Assembly (NCBI GenBank): GCA_015222205.1
Contig: JADFUW010000028.1
Location: 1-59,833, forward strand
From: Chloroflexota bacterium
GTDB lineage: Bacteria; Chloroflexota; Dehalococcoidia; Dehalococcoidales; UBA5760
Direction: 5' to 3'
DNA length: 59,833 nt
Under the pieces are notes generated by a model, which saw only the letters and a list, made by a program, of their open reading frames with translations, was not told the DNA's origin and did not search any database. Made by a program: the position numbers and the translations under genes. Below, in pieces: positions 16,924 to 59,833 of this stretch (position 1 is its first letter; the number at the start of each line of letters is the position of its first letter).

Positions 16924-18384
16924 ATGGCAGTACCCTGGCAGGAAGTAGTAAACAGGATAGATGACTATCGCTGGGAAATCCCGTCTAGCTATAAGCCGGG
17001 CATGCGGGTGCCGGGTCTAATCTATGCCAGCGAATCTATGCTTGGGCATATCTTCCAGGAGCAGGTTTTCCAGCAGGTAGCTAACGTAGCCTTCCTGCCG
17101 GGTATTGTCGGCTACTCACTGGCTATGCCTGATATTCACTGGGGCTATGGCTTTCCTATAGGTGGTGTAGCTGCTACCAGGATAAGAGACGGGGTCATAT
17201 CGCCCGGGGGCGTTGGTTTTGATATTAATTGTGGCGTCAGGCTGCTTAGAACCAATCTTACCCTGGAAGAGGTAAAGCCTAAGATTGAACGGTTAATCAA
17301 TGAACTTTTTGTTAATATCCCCTCGGGACTTGGTTCTGAGGGTAAGATAAGGGTGAATGAGAAAGAGCTGAACCAAGTCTTGTTAAGGGGTAGTCGGTGG
17401 GCGTTAGATAAGGGTTTCGGTAATACCGAAGATATTCTAGTTACTGAAGAGTCAGGCTGCATGAAAGGGGCTAACCCGGATAAGGTGAGTAGCAAGGCTA
17501 AAAAACGGGGCATCCCGCAACTGGGGACCCTGGGTTCCGGTAATCACTTTCTGGAAGTAGAAGTGGTGGATGCAATCTATGACTATAAGTCAGCCCGGGC
17601 TATGGGTATCGCTGAAGTGGGGCAAGTACTGGTCCTGATTCACACCGGTTCCCGGGGCTTTGGGCACGAGGTCTGTGGCGACTATGTAAGACTGCTGGGA
17701 GAAGCGGTAAAGAGATATGGCATCAACCTACCAGACCGTCAGCTTGCCTGTGCTCCTTTAGACTCGCCGGAGGGACGAGACTACCTGGCGGCTATGTCGT
17801 GTGCTGCTAACTACGCCTGGACTAACCGACAATGCATTACTCATTGGGCGAGAGAGTCTTTCGTTAAGGTCTTAGGCAAAAGCCAGATGGAAATAGGTCT
17901 GGAACAGATATACGATGTGTGCCACAATATTGCCAAGATAGAGGAGCATACTATTAACGGCAAAAAACGAACCCTTTGTGTTCACCGCAAGGGGGCAACT
18001 AGGGCTTTCCCAGCAGGACATCCCGATGTTCCCGATATTTACCGTGATGTAGGTCAGCCGGTTCTCATCCCCGGTGATATGGGACGTTGCTCCTATATCG
18101 CTGTAGGTACCGAAGGAGCTATGAAAGAGTCCTTTGGTTCTACCTGCCATGGTGCTGGCCGGGTGCAGAGTCGGGCGGCGGCTAAGCGTAGCCTTAAAGG
18201 AGCTGAGGTGGCTAGGGAACTAGCCGACAGGGGGATTACCGTTAAAACGGGTAGTATGGGTTCACTGGCGGAAGAGGCCTCCCAAGCCTATAAAGATGTG
18301 AACGAGGTAGTTGACATAACCGATAAAGTCGGCATCTCCCGTAAGGTAGCCAGGGCAGTACCTATAGGTGTGATTAAGGGGTGA
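16924..18384 (+). CDS. rtcB: RNA-splicing ligase RtcB
   Basis: A 486-residue RtcB. The Mn-binding and guanylylation residues are in place: PGGVGFDINCGVRLLRT (Asp, Cys), GTLGSGNHFLEVE (His in the SGNH motif), HTGSRGFGHEVC, and the GMP-accepting histidine in GSTCHGAGR. HRKGATRAFPAG is also conserved. The enzyme joins RNA ends bearing 2',3'-cyclic phosphate or 3'-phosphate to 5'-OH, using GTP. With archease next door it is a functional pair; the target RNA is unknown in bacteria of this type. It ends 46 bases before the convergent end of a thioredoxin-like remnant, with no clear terminator between. The start ATG has GGGAGATGG eight bases upstream. Confidence 0.95.
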   Translation: MAVPWQEVVNRIDDYRWEIPSSYKPGMRVPGLIYASESMLGHIFQEQVFQQVANVAFLPGIVGYSLAMPDIHWGYGFPIGGVAATRIRDGVISPGGVGFDINCGVRLLRTNLTLEEVKPKIERLINELFVNIPSGLGSEGKIRVNEKELNQVLLRGSRWALDKGFGNTEDILVTEESGCMKGANPDKVSSKAKKRGIPQLGTLGSGNHFLEVEVVDAIYDYKSARAMGIAEVGQVLVLIHTGSRGFGHEVCGDYVRLLGEAVKRYGINLPDRQLACAPLDSPEGRDYLAAMSCAANYAWTNRQCITHWARESFVKVLGKSQMEIGLEQIYDVCHNIAKIEEHTINGKKRTLCVHRKGATRAFPAGHPDVPDIYRDVGQPVLIPGDMGRCSYIAVGTEGAMKESFGSTCHGAGRVQSRAAAKRSLKGAEVARELADRGITVKTGSMGSLAEEASQAYKDVNEVVDITDKVGISRKVARAVPIGVIKG

Positions 18385-53374: not shown

Positions 53375-53470
53375 GGGGGCGGCTGAGTCCCGGTGGGCTT
53401 CGCGGACTTCAAATCCGTTGGGGGGCATTAGAATGTCTCTGGTGGGTTCGACTCCCATGCGCTCCCGCCA
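53375..53470 (+). tRNA. selC: Selenocysteine tRNA (anticodon TCA)
   Basis: A 96-base tRNA-Sec. It has an eight-position acceptor (GGGGGCGG opposite GCGCTCCC, last pair G-G), a six-base-pair D-stem (GAGTCC-CGGT-GGGCTT) with the four-base loop seen in E. coli selC, and the anticodon loop CTTCAAA in a GCGGA/TCCGT stem. There follow a long variable arm and T-arm GTGGG-TTCGACT-CCCAT; CCA is encoded. The long acceptor+T stack and six-pair D-stem are the features SelB and SelA recognise. It sits 24 bases from the convergent selB end. Confidence 0.95.
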
Positions 53471-53493: not shown

Positions 53494-55347
53494 CTAATAC
53501 AGAACTCGCTCATCACCGGTGCGGCGGGTTACTTTTTCTCCATCCAGGTATTCCATGAGAGCTACGGTATACTTGCGGCTGGTCTTAAACATGTCCCGCA
53601 CCTCAGCTAGGCTTATCTTACCATTGGCTTTTAGGTAGGAAGTAACCCTTTCTACCATCTCATCATAGGCTGAAGTAGAGAAAACTACATCATCACTTAC
53701 CTTGATTACCTGCTTTTGTTCGAGGAGCAGATTGAGCAAATCAGGTTCTGGGATAAAGTCGCTGGGTGGAGCATAAGGGTTTTCGTTTAGTGACTTCAGA
53801 AAGATATCTATCTTTGCCTGCTGAGCCTGAGTTAGCTGGATATGGTGGGTAGGGAGACGAATAGCAATGCCAGCCTCGGTGATAGTGCCATCTTGGAGAA
53901 GTTTTTGTAGAATTGCCGAACGATGTGTCCCCATCTTGAGTCGGCTACTTAGTTCTGCCTTGGGCATACCTAATCGGATGGGGAATCTTTGGTGATAATC
54001 TTGGAGGGTGCTGGTTACTCGTTTAGCCAGATGCTCCCAGCCGAGTGTTGTTAATAGAAGGCAATGCTTCCCCTTGCCTATGCTAATTATCTTGCCTTGC
54101 TTGATGAGCGATTCTATCGCTGGCTCAACTTGAGTGACTGGTAAGCCACTTTGAGCGGAGATGCCTGGTAATTCCAGTGGTTGTTGTGTCTCCAGTATTG
54201 CCATGAGCACCTCTTCAGCTGTACCCTGTGCCTTGACTTTAAGACTCTGAACGGTGGCTGGGTGAAAGCGGCGGTATCGTTGGGCATGGGATTCAACAAC
54301 TTCACCACCCCCCAGGGTTTCCATTGATGAGCGGATAATAAAATGGTCACCCTTGACCAGCGCCGCTGGTTTAGCCAATGATAAATGAGCCAAGGTAGTT
54401 TCATCGGGCTTAAGCTCCTCTTTTTCCAGCAAACGGACTTTGGCCAGCGTCTGGGTAGACCCGACATGAAAGTTGACAGTGGTATTATGGGACAGGGGGT
54501 GGTGGAGATATGCAAGTAGGCGGAGCTGCACAATTAATAGCTTAGTGGGTGTGAGCCATCCTGGCTTGGTGAGCACATCCCCACGCTGTAGCTGAGATGT
54601 GGCAATACCGACTAAATTGGCACCAACTCTGCTTCCGGGGGTAGCCGTATCTACCTGAGCCTTATGCGTTTGTAACCCCCGTATACGGGACCTCAGGTCA
54701 GAGGGGATAATTTCTACATCCTGTCCCACAGTTAGTGAGCCATCAATCAATGTGCCGGTAACTACGGTGCCAGAACCAGCTATAGTGAACACCCGGTCTA
54801 TCGGGAGTCTGGGCCGGCCAATATCCTTCTTGGGCGGGGTAGAGCCTAAGAGTTTATCGATAACCGAAACTAAACCAGGTAAACCTTCCCCAGTTAGGGC
54901 CGAGACGGAGACAATCGGTGCCTGGGATAAGGCAGTTGGGGAGAGTAGTTTCTCTACCTCTATCTTGACTAAGCTCAGCCACTCATTATCTACCAGGTCT
55001 TTCTTAGTGATGACGGCTACTGCCCTTTTTATGCCGAGCATGTTCAGAATGGCTAAATGCTCCCTGGTTTGGGGCATCACTCCCTCACTAGCATCGATGA
55101 TAAGTAGGGCTAGGTCGATGCTGCCCACTCCAGCCAGCATGTTTTTAATCAGTCGTTCGTGCCCTGGGACATCAACAATGCCCACCTCTTGGCCGCTGGG
55201 TAGCCTTAGCCAGGCGAAGCCCAGGTCAATAGTCATGCCCCGTTCCTTCTCCTCACGCAATCGGTCCGGGTCTATCCCGGTTAAGGCACGCACTAAAACC
55301 GACTTACCGTGGTCTATGTGTCCCGCAGTACCCAGCACAAACATCAA
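53494..55347 (-). CDS. selB: Selenocysteine-specific elongation factor SelB
   Basis: A 617-residue SelB. G1 is GTAGHIDHGKSVLV, G3 DVPGHERLI and G4 TKKD; the EF-Tu-like domains follow to about residue 340. The C-terminal region (about 380-617) has the winged-helix repeats that bind the SECIS hairpin of the mRNA. It brings Sec-tRNA to UGA codons. It starts 23 bases after selA ends, so selA-selB form an operon. Its end converges on selC. Confidence 0.96.
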   Translation of the reverse strand: MMFVLGTAGHIDHGKSVLVRALTGIDPDRLREEKERGMTIDLGFAWLRLPSGQEVGIVDVPGHERLIKNMLAGVGSIDLALLIIDASEGVMPQTREHLAILNMLGIKRAVAVITKKDLVDNEWLSLVKIEVEKLLSPTALSQAPIVSVSALTGEGLPGLVSVIDKLLGSTPPKKDIGRPRLPIDRVFTIAGSGTVVTGTLIDGSLTVGQDVEIIPSDLRSRIRGLQTHKAQVDTATPGSRVGANLVGIATSQLQRGDVLTKPGWLTPTKLLIVQLRLLAYLHHPLSHNTTVNFHVGSTQTLAKVRLLEKEELKPDETTLAHLSLAKPAALVKGDHFIIRSSMETLGGGEVVESHAQRYRRFHPATVQSLKVKAQGTAEEVLMAILETQQPLELPGISAQSGLPVTQVEPAIESLIKQGKIISIGKGKHCLLLTTLGWEHLAKRVTSTLQDYHQRFPIRLGMPKAELSSRLKMGTHRSAILQKLLQDGTITEAGIAIRLPTHHIQLTQAQQAKIDIFLKSLNENPYAPPSDFIPEPDLLNLLLEQKQVIKVSDDVVFSTSAYDEMVERVTSYLKANGKISLAEVRDMFKTSRKYTVALMEYLDGEKVTRRTGDERVLY

Positions 55348-55370: not shown

Positions 55371-56762
55371 TTAGGACTGCTCCAGGGCAGTGGTATCCCC
55401 AAGGGCTTTAAGCATAATCTCATCCTCTTCAGGGGGCACAGAACGCGGGTCGAGAAGCAAAACATTGCCACTAATCCGGCCTATAACTGGTATTTCTTGG
55501 TGGTGGAGTCTCTGGCTTATGGCTTGAGCTATAGTTGGCTGTTTTTTCTTGTCCTCCCCTCCAATGGCAACGAGCTTTGTCGGCAGGGTACCGCCGGGCA
55601 GACTACCGCCCCCTATCATTGTCTCTCCTTCTACTACCCTGGCCAAGCCTCCGAGAGACTGAGCCCACAGCCTGGCTCGCTGGTCAATCTCTTCCAGTGG
55701 CGCTGAAATCATACGCCATACCGGGACCTTAGTTACTGCCTCGCCTTTTAAGTAGTGAATTAGGGTAGCTATTAGGCCAGCCAGTCTTACTTTGTCAATT
55801 CGTACCGCCCGTGCCAGTGGGTGTCTCTTTAGCCGGTCAACAAGCGGTTTCTTGCCGACAATAATCCCGGCTTGAGGGCCACCCAAGAGCTTATCACCCG
55901 AGGAGAAGACCAGCCCGGCGCCAAGGCTGATGCTCTGCTGTATCATTGGCTCCGGCTCAAGACCAAATCTACTTGTATCTAATAGGCAGCCACTACCGAG
56001 GTCATCAAATACGGGGAGGTTGTGCTGGTTACCCAGCCTGGCTAAGTCATCAAGGGTAACAAAGTGGGTGAAACCCATTAGCCTGAAGTTGCTGGAATGA
56101 ACACGCATCAAGGCGGCTGTCCTCGGGTTGATAGCCGCTTCGTAGTCGGTAATATATGTACAGTTGGTAGTCCCTACCTCAATTAGTTTAGCCCCACTTT
56201 GGCGCATGACATCGGGGATGCGAAAGCCACCGCCAATCTCCACGGCTTGGCCCCGGGAAACAATCACCTCTTTCCTCTTGGTTAGCGCCGTGAGGGCTAG
56301 TAGCACTGCTGAGGCATTATTATTTACCACCAGTGCTGCCTCAGCCCCGGTTAACTGGCATAAGAGCTGCTCAACGTGGGTGTGGCGCGAACCCCGCCGA
56401 CCGCTATTGAGGTCGAGCTCCAGATTGCAATAGCCTTTGGCGACAGCATCCATAGCGGTTATTGCCTCTTTACTGAGCGGGGCACGACCCAGATTAGTGT
56501 GAAGTATTACCCCGGTGGCATTGATTACCGGACGCAGGCTGAGGTTTGTTAAGGTAGATACCTGGGAGCAAATAGACTCTACTAACTCATCAGTTGAGGG
56601 GCAGGGATTGCCAGCGGCGATAGATAAGCGTTCTTGCTGGAGATGTTGTCGCACCAACTCTACTAGTAGTGTGTGAGGATAGTTCTCCTGAAGCTGCTTA
56701 ATCCTCTCTTCGGAGATTAGTTTATCCACACTGGGTAGAAAGCGATACTCATTATCCATCAT
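55371..56762 (-). CDS. selA: L-seryl-tRNA(Sec) selenium transferase
   Basis: A 463-residue SelA of the bacterial type. PVINATGVILHTNLGRAPLS is the N-terminal signature, and the PLP Lys is in VFSSGDKLLGGPQAG near residue 290. It turns Ser-tRNA-Sec into Sec-tRNA with selenophosphate. It is divergent from selD across a 190-base region that holds the selD promoter. The start is the double ATG MMDNEYRFLPS. Confidence 0.96.
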   Translation of the reverse strand: MMDNEYRFLPSVDKLISEERIKQLQENYPHTLLVELVRQHLQQERLSIAAGNPCPSTDELVESICSQVSTLTNLSLRPVINATGVILHTNLGRAPLSKEAITAMDAVAKGYCNLELDLNSGRRGSRHTHVEQLLCQLTGAEAALVVNNNASAVLLALTALTKRKEVIVSRGQAVEIGGGFRIPDVMRQSGAKLIEVGTTNCTYITDYEAAINPRTAALMRVHSSNFRLMGFTHFVTLDDLARLGNQHNLPVFDDLGSGCLLDTSRFGLEPEPMIQQSISLGAGLVFSSGDKLLGGPQAGIIVGKKPLVDRLKRHPLARAVRIDKVRLAGLIATLIHYLKGEAVTKVPVWRMISAPLEEIDQRARLWAQSLGGLARVVEGETMIGGGSLPGGTLPTKLVAIGGEDKKKQPTIAQAISQRLHHQEIPVIGRISGNVLLLDPRSVPPEEDEIMLKALGDTTALEQS

Positions 56763-56952: not shown

Positions 56953-58005
56953 ATGGATAAGAAGAGGATAAACCCTCGTCTGACCGAAAGTGTCCGAGGG
57001 GCGGGCTGAGCTTCTAAGATGGGTCCGGGAGACCTAAACAAGGCTATATGTGATTTGCCCCAGATGTCTGACCCCAACCTGGTCCGAGGTTTGGCTAGTC
57101 CAGACGATGCTGGTGTCTACAAGCTAACCGATGAACTGGCTATCATCCAGACCATTGATTATTTCACCCCTATAGTTGATGACCCTTACACCTTTGGTCA
57201 GATTGCGGTGGCTAACGCCTTGAGCGATGTCTACGCTATGGGTGGTAAGCCGTTAACAGCCATGAATGTGGTCTGCTTTCCGGTAAAGTCTCTGGATATT
57301 TCTGTCTTGAAGGATATACTCAGGGGTGGAGTGGATAAGATACTTGAGGCAGGGGCGCTGCTGGTCGGGGGACACAGTATAGAGGATACTGAACTCAAAT
57401 ATGGGCTTTCTGTTACCGGCACCGTGCATCCCAAACGGCTGGTGACCAATTCCGGGGCCAGGGTAGGGGATAAGCTGATACTTACCAAACTGCTGGGGAC
57501 CGGCATTATAAGTACCGCGGTAAAAGCAAAGATGGCCAGTGAGGAAACGGCAGCGCAGGTGGCAAAGTGTATGGCAACCCTGAATAGTAAAGCCTCGGAG
57601 CTGATGCAGGAAATAGGGGTTCATGCCTGTACTGATATTACTGGTTTTGGACTTCTTGGCCATATTTGTCAGCTAGCTCAGAATAGCCAAGTAGGCATCA
57701 ATATCTTTTCGGCTTCGGTTCCCTTCTTTCCGGAAGCAGGGGAGTTTGCTAATCAGGGGCTGTGCCCAGCGGGCTTATACCGGAATAAAGAGTTTTACTC
57801 TGCTTCAGTAGCAATTGCCGGCAGGGTGCCGGCGCATATGCGAGATATCCTTTTTGACCCGCAAACCTCTGGGGGTTTGCTAATCTCTCTAGCTCCTAGG
57901 AAAGCCAAATTATTACTGGATAGATTACAGCAGGCTGGCATGGAAGATGCGGCTATCGTTGGAGAGGTGGCTAGCAAACCGGAGGGAATGGTTATAGTAA
58001 GATAA
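56953..58005 (+). CDS. selD: Selenophosphate synthetase, itself a selenoprotein (Sec at UGA 57007)
   Basis: The true start is the ATG at 56953, six to seven bases after GGAGGAG. The frame then meets an in-frame TGA at 57007-57009, giving MDKKRINPRLTESVRGAG-Sec-ASKMGPGDL. This places Sec (residue 19) exactly at the catalytic Cys/Sec of SelD (GxGC/UxxK), with the catalytic Lys in ASK. The total is 350 residues, the normal SelD length; starting at the ATG at 57019 would lose the active site. Further motifs are DDAGVYKL, TIDYFTPIVDDPYTFGQIAV and NALSDVYAMGG. It makes selenophosphate from selenide and ATP. A SECIS-like hairpin follows the UGA (57020-57036). Confidence 0.95.
57007..57036 (+). promoter_or_regulatory. 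Sec codon and SECIS-like hairpin in selD
   Basis: After UGA (57007-57009) the sequence TGGGTC-CGGGA-GACCTA (57020-57036) folds as a six-pair stem with a five-base loop that has G at its second position. The loop begins 16 bases after the UGA, at the short end of the distances I recall for bacterial SECIS elements. Confidence 0.6.
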
Positions 58006-58044: not shown

Positions 58045-58944
58045 TCAGCCGGGCGCTTTTACTTTGAGGCTTAGCTCTTTACTTGCTTCGCCGCCCCTAG
58101 CATCGATTACGGTAACCGTAACCACATAGCTCTCACAGGTGTTGGGGGCTGTCCAAATAACAGCAGAACCTTCGCCTGAGATATCCCCGCCGGTTGCTGT
58201 CCATAGGTAGCTAAGTTCATCCTCATCTGGGTCAGAAGCAACACACTCAATAGGGGTGGATTTACCCTCGCTAACCACCGAGTGCTCAGGGGTCAGGCGT
58301 TCGATAATCGGAGAGTGATTGACCAGTACATCTATGGATAGTTGCCCTGTTATCTCACCATCCCGGCCATCTGTTACCGTAACAGTAATCACATAGGTGC
58401 CTGTCTTAGCAGGTGCCATCCAGGCAACAATCGAACCTGGGGCAGGAAAGGTGCCTCCGGTGGCTGACCAAGCATAGGTTAAGTTGTCGCCGTCGGCATC
58501 AGAGGCAGCACATGCGATAACAATGGACTCATCTGGATTAGCCACTAGTCGCTCGGCAGTCAGGCGCTCGATGACTGGCGGGCGATTGACCACTACATCT
58601 ATGGGTAGTTGCCTTACTACCTCACCACCCCGGCCATCTGTTACCGTAGCAGTAATCACATAGGTGCCTGTTTCGTCAGGTGCCGTCCAGGTAGTAATCG
58701 GGCCTGGGGCAGAAAAGATGCCTCCGGTAGCTGACCAAGTGTAGGTTAGGCTATCGTCGTCAGCATCAAAAGCGACACAACGAACTTCACAGCTGCCCGA
58801 TACGGTGACCCGATCTTCTGTTGTCTCCAGGCTGCTGATGACAGGGTCGTTATTGAGCAAGCCACAGCTGCTGCCAAGAATCGTACATAGAATTAAGGCT
58901 ACCAAGCTAAGGTGCCATTTTTTCTGACCTAGGGGTGATTTCAT
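58045..58944 (-). CDS. Lipoprotein with three PKD-like repeats
   Basis: A 299-residue exported lipoprotein: a signal peptide (MKSPLGQKKWHLSLVALILC) with lipobox LGSS-Cys near residue 27. It then has three repeats of about 90 residues (about 33-118, 119-206, 207-296), each with the PKD-like core DADDDSLTYTWSATGG / DADGDNLTYAWSATGG / DPDEDELSYLWTATGG and an end like VTVTDGRGGE. PKD domains are beta-sandwiches in surface proteins used for binding or spacing. No catalytic domain is attached. The second and third spans differ in their linkers, so the repeats are old. It converges with selD. Confidence 0.85.
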   Translation of the reverse strand: MKSPLGQKKWHLSLVALILCTILGSSCGLLNNDPVISSLETTEDRVTVSGSCEVRCVAFDADDDSLTYTWSATGGIFSAPGPITTWTAPDETGTYVITATVTDGRGGEVVRQLPIDVVVNRPPVIERLTAERLVANPDESIVIACAASDADGDNLTYAWSATGGTFPAPGSIVAWMAPAKTGTYVITVTVTDGRDGEITGQLSIDVLVNHSPIIERLTPEHSVVSEGKSTPIECVASDPDEDELSYLWTATGGDISGEGSAVIWTAPNTCESYVVTVTVIDARGGEASKELSLKVKAPG

Positions 58945-59199: not shown

Positions 59200-59634
59200 A
59201 TGAATATCTCAACCAGGGGACGTTATGCAGTACGGGCAATGCTTGATTTGGCGCTCCAGTCCGGAGGAGGTCCTACCCTTGTTAGAGACATTTCTAAGAG
59301 GCAGGGGGTCTCGGACCTATATCTGGAGCAGTTGTTTACGCGGCTCAAGACAGCTGGCTTAGTTAGGAGTACCCGTGGGCCTAAGGGGGGATTTATGCTG
59401 GCTAAGCTACCGTCACAGATAAGGCTTGCCGATATTCTGCAGGTTATGGAGGGTTCAATGGCACCTGTGGAATGTGTAGATGATGCGATGCTGTGTCCAC
59501 GTGCTGACTCCTGTATAACCCGTAAGGTATGGGTAGATGTGAAGAAAGCACTGAATGGAGTGTTGGAGTCTACCACTCTACAAGACTTGGTTAAGCGGGA
59601 TGAGCGGGATGAGGTTGGAACACGTGAAGTGTAA
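59200..59634 (+). CDS. Rrf2-family transcriptional regulator (IscR-like)
   Basis: A 144-residue winged-helix regulator. The N-terminal MNISTRGRYAVRAMLDLALQ and SDLYLEQLFTRLKTAGLVRS with GPKGGFMLAK are Rrf2 signatures. Three cysteines in ECVDDAMLCPRADSC (C-x6-C-x5-C) match the Fe-S cluster site of IscR-type members, so it may sense iron-sulfur status or redox. The promoter just upstream carries a candidate operator. The gene is followed after 24 bases by the secreted protein cut by the window end. Confidence 0.88.
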   Translation: MNISTRGRYAVRAMLDLALQSGGGPTLVRDISKRQGVSDLYLEQLFTRLKTAGLVRSTRGPKGGFMLAKLPSQIRLADILQVMEGSMAPVECVDDAMLCPRADSCITRKVWVDVKKALNGVLESTTLQDLVKRDERDEVGTREV

Positions 59635-59658
59635 GCTAGGATAAGGGGAGAGAAAGAC

Positions 59659-59833
59659 ATGAAAAGTAAACTGGTAAAAGTCGCCTTGCCGTGGTTGGTC
59701 TTGGCAATGTTACTGCCGGTGATGTCGGCAGTGCTATTGATGGCCAAGCCAGTCGGGGCGAGCTGAGGGGGAGGTGGTAATGGCGGGTCGTCAGGTTCGA
59801 CGACCGTGACAGTTAGCGTGGATGTCAGCCCAG
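59659..59833 (+). CDS. Secreted protein with in-frame UGA, possible selenoprotein, cut by window end
   Basis: The ATG at 59659 follows GGGGAG after ten bases. The first 35 codons form a clear signal peptide (MKSKLVKVALPWLVLAML, then a hydrophobic core and KPVGAS). A TGA follows at 59764-59766. After it the same frame continues GGGGNGGSSGSTTVTVSVDV to the window end, with a flexible Gly linker and then beta-strand-like sequence. The sequence right after the TGA folds into a SECIS-like hairpin (59786-59805). So the TGA may encode Sec near the mature N-terminus. A Cys-to-stop mutation or sequencing error (TGC or TGT to TGA), or a natural stop of a 35-residue peptide, are the alternatives. Confidence 0.5.
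59764..59806 (+). promoter_or_regulatory. In-frame UGA with SECIS-like hairpin
   Basis: GGTCGTC (59786-59792) and GACGACC (59799-59805) form a perfect 7-bp stem with loop AGGTTC, close to the AGGUCU loop of E. coli fdhF as I recall it. The loop starts 26 bases after the UGA (59764-59766), within the range I recall for bacterial SECIS elements. Confidence 0.45.

Follow-up and report, generated by a model that had tools for sequence, protein, structure and literature searches.

A truncated gene at the edge of a sel cluster

The window (the whole stretch of DNA analysed, 59,833 nucleotides long) ends within a gene that sits in a cluster of genes for the synthesis and insertion of selenocysteine (Sec), as collected in Table 1. 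A frame opens at ATG 59659-59661 with MKSKLVKVALPWLVLAMLLPVMSAVLLMAKPVGAS and reaches a TGA at codon 36; beyond it, 22 codons, GGGGNGGSSGSTTVTVSVDVSP, remain in frame up to the final base. An earlier note had described this signal-peptide frame and its continuation past the UGA, together with a 7-bp hairpin with loop AGGTTC starting 20 nt after that codon, and had placed selA, selB, selC and a Sec-type selD in the same region; all of these are indeed present in the sequence.

Table 1. Features of the sel cluster and of the truncated gene at the end of the window
Feature	Position	Strand	Basis
selC, tRNA-Sec (UCA anticodon)	53375-53470	+	ARAGORN; Rfam RF01852, 69.9 bits
selB	53500-55338	-	TIGR00475, 356.7 bits
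selA	55371-56762	-	TIGR00474, 558.6 bits
selD, with its own Sec codon (TGA 57007-57009) in GAG-U-ASK (GUASK motif)	56953-58005	+	
Lipoprotein with PKD-like repeats, beside the rrf2-selenoprotein gene pair	58045-58944	-	
Rrf2/IscR-type regulator with three spaced Cys, directly upstream of the candidate selenoprotein gene	59200-59634	+	Pfam Rrf2, E 2.8e-40
Shine-Dalgarno-like AAGGGGAGA, upstream of the ATG	59643-59651	+	Sequence
5′ part of the candidate selenoprotein gene, which the end of the contig truncates (signal peptide, putative Sec codon, Gly-rich linker, start of first InlB-type repeat)	59659-59833	+	Sequence, homologues
Signal peptide region, 35 codons, ending ...AKPVGAS directly before the UGA	59659-59763	+	Sequence; alignment with 13 Sec and 4 Cys homologues
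In-frame TGA, codon 36, very probably read as Sec	59764-59766	+	TGA in 45 of 45 family loci, TGC in 4 homologues
SECIS-like hairpin: GGTCGTC (59786-59792), AGGTTC (59793-59798), GACGACC (59799-59805)	59786-59805	+	

The Rrf2 neighbour is kept in six congeners. Its three cysteines (C-x6-C-x5-C) are spaced as in members of the Fe-S type, and the regulator may tie expression to redox or iron-sulfur state. As to the lipoprotein on the other side, similar lipoprotein starts (..SVGCGLINKPPVI..) recur in congener loci of two paralogues (L072 and L074), and the pairing of lipoprotein with selenoprotein may be meaningful.

A family of UGA-containing genes in Dehalococcoidia

The contig (G000:C22) stops exactly at position 59833, so that the source genome cannot lengthen the frame, and relatives are needed to decide how the gene is read. 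With the Rrf2 protein as query, the same locus was located across the genus. In six congeners the gene that follows rrf2 has a signal peptide, reaches a TGA at the equivalent position and remains open past it; where the contig is long enough, the open part runs on for about 390 codons and closes with a TAG. Those counterparts that bear a name, UBA5760 and STD1_192 among them, are Dehalococcoidia or Dehalococcoidales assembled from metagenomes. Across seven pairs, pN/pS computed over the whole protein lies between 0.41 and 0.54: the frame after the UGA is under purifying selection.

Searches with profiles of the N-terminus were used to find further TGA genes in the order and in the class (for a contig scan a genus-level profile worked, whereas one built from all groups was too diverged). 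They gave 45 distinct TGA loci in 28 genomes, most of them metagenome-assembled, from eight families of Dehalococcoidia: eight genomes from the genus, 15 from the rest of the order and five from other families of the class. The stop codon at the family position is TGA in every one of the 45 loci, TAA or TAG in none. Among 400 sampled genomes of the phylum, no TGA match lay outside the class. A distant candidate, L050 in G070, was rejected, its single TGA being unrelated to the signal peptide.

The members fall into three groups. Group 1 is the genus, with a ...G-U-G-G/C-rich linker. Group 2, drawn from the order's other families plus a single further genome of the class, reads ...[AG]-U-PG..LTVDVSP. 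Group 3 comes from a single family that belongs to the class but not to the order; most of its members have a Cys one to three residues after U, followed by ..LTVVS. Two family genes lie in tandem within 1 kb (L126, L128) in G295 and in G334. On contig G295:C26, some 2 kb separate a group-3 gene from tRNA-Sec (17149-17241); linkage to sel genes is thus also found outside the order. Judged from sequence, what we have at hand is a multi-copy, paralogous family across Dehalococcoidia, a larger finding than the one first stated.

The hairpin downstream of the UGA codon

Taken alone, the hairpin of the window, which has its loop at +27, is but weakly above chance. Its fold z is -0.7, 53 of 200 shuffles are at least as stable, and when the codon shuffles of all loci are pooled, about 3% attain stem scores of its level (at least 18). 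As folding does not separate it from shuffles, we dropped the argument from the energy of a single sequence in favour of comparison, and it is from the relatives that significance comes. In most loci, a simple stem scan finds the apical loop 18-27 nt downstream of the UGA. A stem score of at least 15 is found in 82% of the 45 loci, against 8% of segments taken farther along these genes and 10% after codon shuffling. Three genus members (L061, L062 and L015) have weaker or less regular hairpins.

The stem of group 2, GCTGAC/GTCAGC, also occurs as GCTAAC/GTTAGC, ACTGAC/GTCAGT and ACTGAT/ATCAGT; among 18 sequences, four of the seven pairs have undergone double-sided changes and 90.5% of the cells pair. 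Covariation amounts to 0.283, versus 0.144 after shuffling (0 of 500 shuffles), and the paired share drops to 17-50% when the register is slid. The loop cores are G-GU-C or C-GU-G, and A-GGU(C/U)-C in most of group 1. A published rule for the loop of bacterial SECIS elements, N1-G[G/U]-N-N2 with N1 and N2 paired (PMC13188914), leads one to expect just such an exchange between G-GU-C and C-GU-G. The bSECIS model further asks for an apical loop of 3-9 nt located 16-37 nt after the UGA, a stem of at least 4 bp, a G within the first two loop positions and a folding energy of -7.5 kcal/mol or below (PMC13188914). By the simple stem scan, 43 of the 45 loci meet the criteria of loop, distance, G and stem; in L062 and L086 the best scan match is without an early G. 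The energy criterion is met by the 50 nt of the window from the UGA on (-12.9 kcal/mol).

No Rfam model matches the hairpin of the window. Its loop is like that of the SECIS of Escherichia coli fdhF, which we take to begin with AGGU and to lie at a comparable distance from its UGA; the fdhF stem is unrelated, however, and sits in a different coding sequence.

Cysteine homologues and the presence of the Sec machinery

Four full-length Cys homologues, the only such ones found, belong to two other families and carry TGC exactly at the UGA codon, in the contexts ...PVEAG-C-P-C, ...GAAG-C-C, ...PVEAG-C-S-C and ...VEAG-C-P-C. Their four genomes have no selA, no selB over cut-off and no full-scoring tRNA-Sec: true ones score 69-78 bits, and these genomes reach 54 at most. 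As for the genomes with TGA, selA, selB or tRNA-Sec was seen in 27 of the 28. G135 (locus L143), 83% complete, has the TGA gene with a good hairpin, yet no selA, selB or full-scoring tRNA-Sec, and the missing genes are probably a matter of assembly incompleteness. The one congener without the selenoprotein gene, G004, 98% complete, is also without selA, selB and a full-scoring tRNA-Sec. Within the order, 92 of 156 genomes contain selB, whose presence alone is therefore not rare. In one of the Cys homologues, L063 (at about 2979 in G069, a genome without Sec genes), the TGC is still followed by GGSS codons and by a weak hairpin, GGTGG-GTCATCA-CCACC; this is possibly the relic of a former SECIS.

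How is the UGA codon read?

That the UGA is decoded as Sec is close to certain in our judgement, while it has not been shown by experiment. The idea put forward in the earlier note, a secreted selenoprotein, is supported by the open frames in congeners after the same TGA and by the Cys homologues, both of which the note had asked to look for, and further by the 45 TGA loci, the covarying hairpin at SECIS distance and the co-occurrence with the Sec machinery. Three other readings have been considered.

UGA might have been reassigned, or be read through unspecifically as Trp, Gly or another residue, and the frame alone admittedly demonstrates no more than a conserved, readable UGA. Yet TGA is the ordinary stop of 10 of the 36 long frames in the window, the homologues carry Cys rather than Trp or Gly, the hairpin that follows is of SECIS type and covaries, and the occurrence of the gene tracks that of the Sec machinery: this reading is very improbable.

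We give still less credit to a genuine stop, with the first open reading frame making a short secreted peptide or being the remnant of a decayed gene. UGA is formally a stop codon, through which standard annotation would not read, and the window displays only 22 codons beyond it; the 45 loci, however, are open on both sides and interrupted exclusively by TGA, selection purifies what follows, and the Cys homologues are uninterrupted, all of which already contradicts it.

Equally hard to credit is a pair of frames, the UGA closing a leader peptide and the second part beginning at an internal codon, for while some members have a GTG soon after the UGA and the open reading frames of L015/L145 and L013 can start there, no start codon is positionally conserved across the family, the second part would have a membrane anchor at its C-terminus yet no signal peptide, and the Cys homologues are single proteins.

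Predicted anatomy of the protein and a possible cysteine partner

Decoding of the UGA as Sec thus retained, what kind of protein would be made? The fragment in the window is too short for Pfam. Its congener L015 matches a Flg_new_2/InlB B-repeat (E 5.3e-9; PF18998, 36.4 bits for a gathering score of 23.6) and a CARDB domain (2.8e-5), and then has a hydrophobic stretch followed by RWWRRR. The structure predicted for group 2 (pLDDT 91) consists of beta repeats and one C-terminal helix. Nothing beyond generic beta-domain surface proteins came out of a fold search, and TM-scores were low, so that no function can be read from it. Sequence and model together describe a predicted surface stalk, made of a signal peptide, one or several InlB-type repeats and a C-terminal membrane anchor. 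With the signal peptide in front and the anchor behind, the Sec end is inferred to lie outside the cell, distal to the membrane.

The residues preceding Sec (AYG, AAG, EAG, EAR, GAS, VAA and the like, as judged by eye on alignments) suit signal peptidase I, from which we infer that the mature protein has Sec at about its fourth residue or earlier. A lipobox, [LVI][ASTVI][GAS]-C, was envisaged for the same place and rejected, the residues before Sec or Cys not fitting it.

Every one of the 44 ectodomains open to inspection (that of the window, being cut, was left out) has a cysteine at +1 to +4, +25 to +38 or +69 to +73 from Sec. This cysteine is the sole Cys of the mature protein in many members, and in group 2 the Cys at +73 is nearly invariant. 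Of the family's 44 first repeats, 17 have Cys at the group-2 partner column, as against 1 of 101 repeats from ordinary Flg_new_2/InlB B-repeat surface proteins (PF18998, TIGR02543), which share the repeat domain but have no UGA; the members being related, a p-value would mislead here. It is because the position of the cysteine shifts between lineages while its presence is constant that a Sec-Cys pair is suggested. Whether this makes a redox pair is, to us, a matter of even odds: the proposal rests on residue patterns only, there is no catalytic domain, and a clasp or a metal site are the alternatives.

Indeed, Sec could be decoded and yet serve as a point of attachment for a lipid or a metal, or as a non-catalytic Se-S clasp, rather than as a redox centre. 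It stands where a lipoprotein would have its Cys, no enzyme domain accompanies it, and a single Cys partner is enough for a static crosslink. Against this, AYG, EAG, EAR and GAS before Sec do not fit a lipobox, the C-terminal anchor makes a lipid needless, and a static bond is not obviously in need of Sec. We regard this role as possible, if rather unlikely.

A proposed mechanism

In our preferred explanation, which as a whole we consider highly probable, a Sec-decoded stalk stands at the cell surface with a Sec-Cys tip. SelB and tRNA-Sec, encoded 4-6 kb away, would read the UGA of codon 36 as Sec, directed by the bacterial SECIS hairpin some 20 nt downstream (for which there is support from comparison, none from biochemistry). 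The signal peptide would export the protein and be cut off at the motif of small residues that precedes the UGA, so that Sec would end up at about position four or earlier of the mature chain. Behind it, an InlB-type beta-repeat stalk, with further domains in some members, is predicted to be held by a C-terminal transmembrane helix and a basic tail. The N-terminal Sec may then pair with the one conserved Cys, which lies either nearby or within the first repeat. Their bond, probably a reversible selenenylsulfide, would make a redox-active or self-clasping tip outside the cell; this last step is inferred. As to the broader claim, namely that Dehalococcoidia possess a stalk family, encoded by paralogous and partly sel-linked genes, in which the mature N-terminal Sec and a lineage-shifting Cys form an extracellular redox or metal-binding tip, we are evenly divided.

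Relation to known selenoproteins

A known decoding system is used here in a new kind of protein, and the family is absent from the catalogues searched. A 2026 review enumerates 119 families and subfamilies of prokaryotic selenoproteins (PMC13188914); its list has no InlB-repeat stalk with Sec just behind a signal peptide, and its text mentions neither signal peptides nor Chloroflexota. In NCBIfam (June 2026) only a generic repeat model scores over cut-off, the NF models not having been inspected individually. The GUxG motif of hypothetical protein DG, a listed family found in Desulfosediminicola (PMC12013277), also occurs in some of our members, but no such model matched. Such published work on Sec in this class as we came across concerns formate dehydrogenases (PMC5736913), and searches of an open-access library, preprints and subscription papers being outside our scope, gave no report of the UGA stalk family.

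Within the same cluster, SelD likewise has its Sec near the N-terminus and depends on the same decoding apparatus, but it is a cytoplasmic enzyme, unrelated in sequence to the stalk protein. A UGA codon with a bacterial SECIS is also common to the exported or envelope selenoproteins already catalogued, for example DUF1573 with its UGC motif, PCYCxC/OS_HP4, the TonB-dependent receptor FCYXU and the multiheme ExtKL. All of these presumably operate outside the cytoplasm, some with U-x-C motifs. Their domains and the position of their Sec differ from those of the stalk family (PMC13188914, Table 1).

A possible use of selenium outside the cell

The family adds a multi-copy selenoprotein to a widespread, mostly uncultured class of anaerobes, and extends the use of Sec in these cells beyond formate dehydrogenase and SelD. 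Such genes would be broken at the UGA or dropped altogether by standard annotation, and methods that require many Cys homologues could miss them. An exposed N-terminal Sec on a non-enzymatic stalk, with a Cys partner that moves, makes the role of selenium outside the anaerobic cell amenable to test. If true, selenium chemistry would here take place at the cell surface and in no known enzyme fold.
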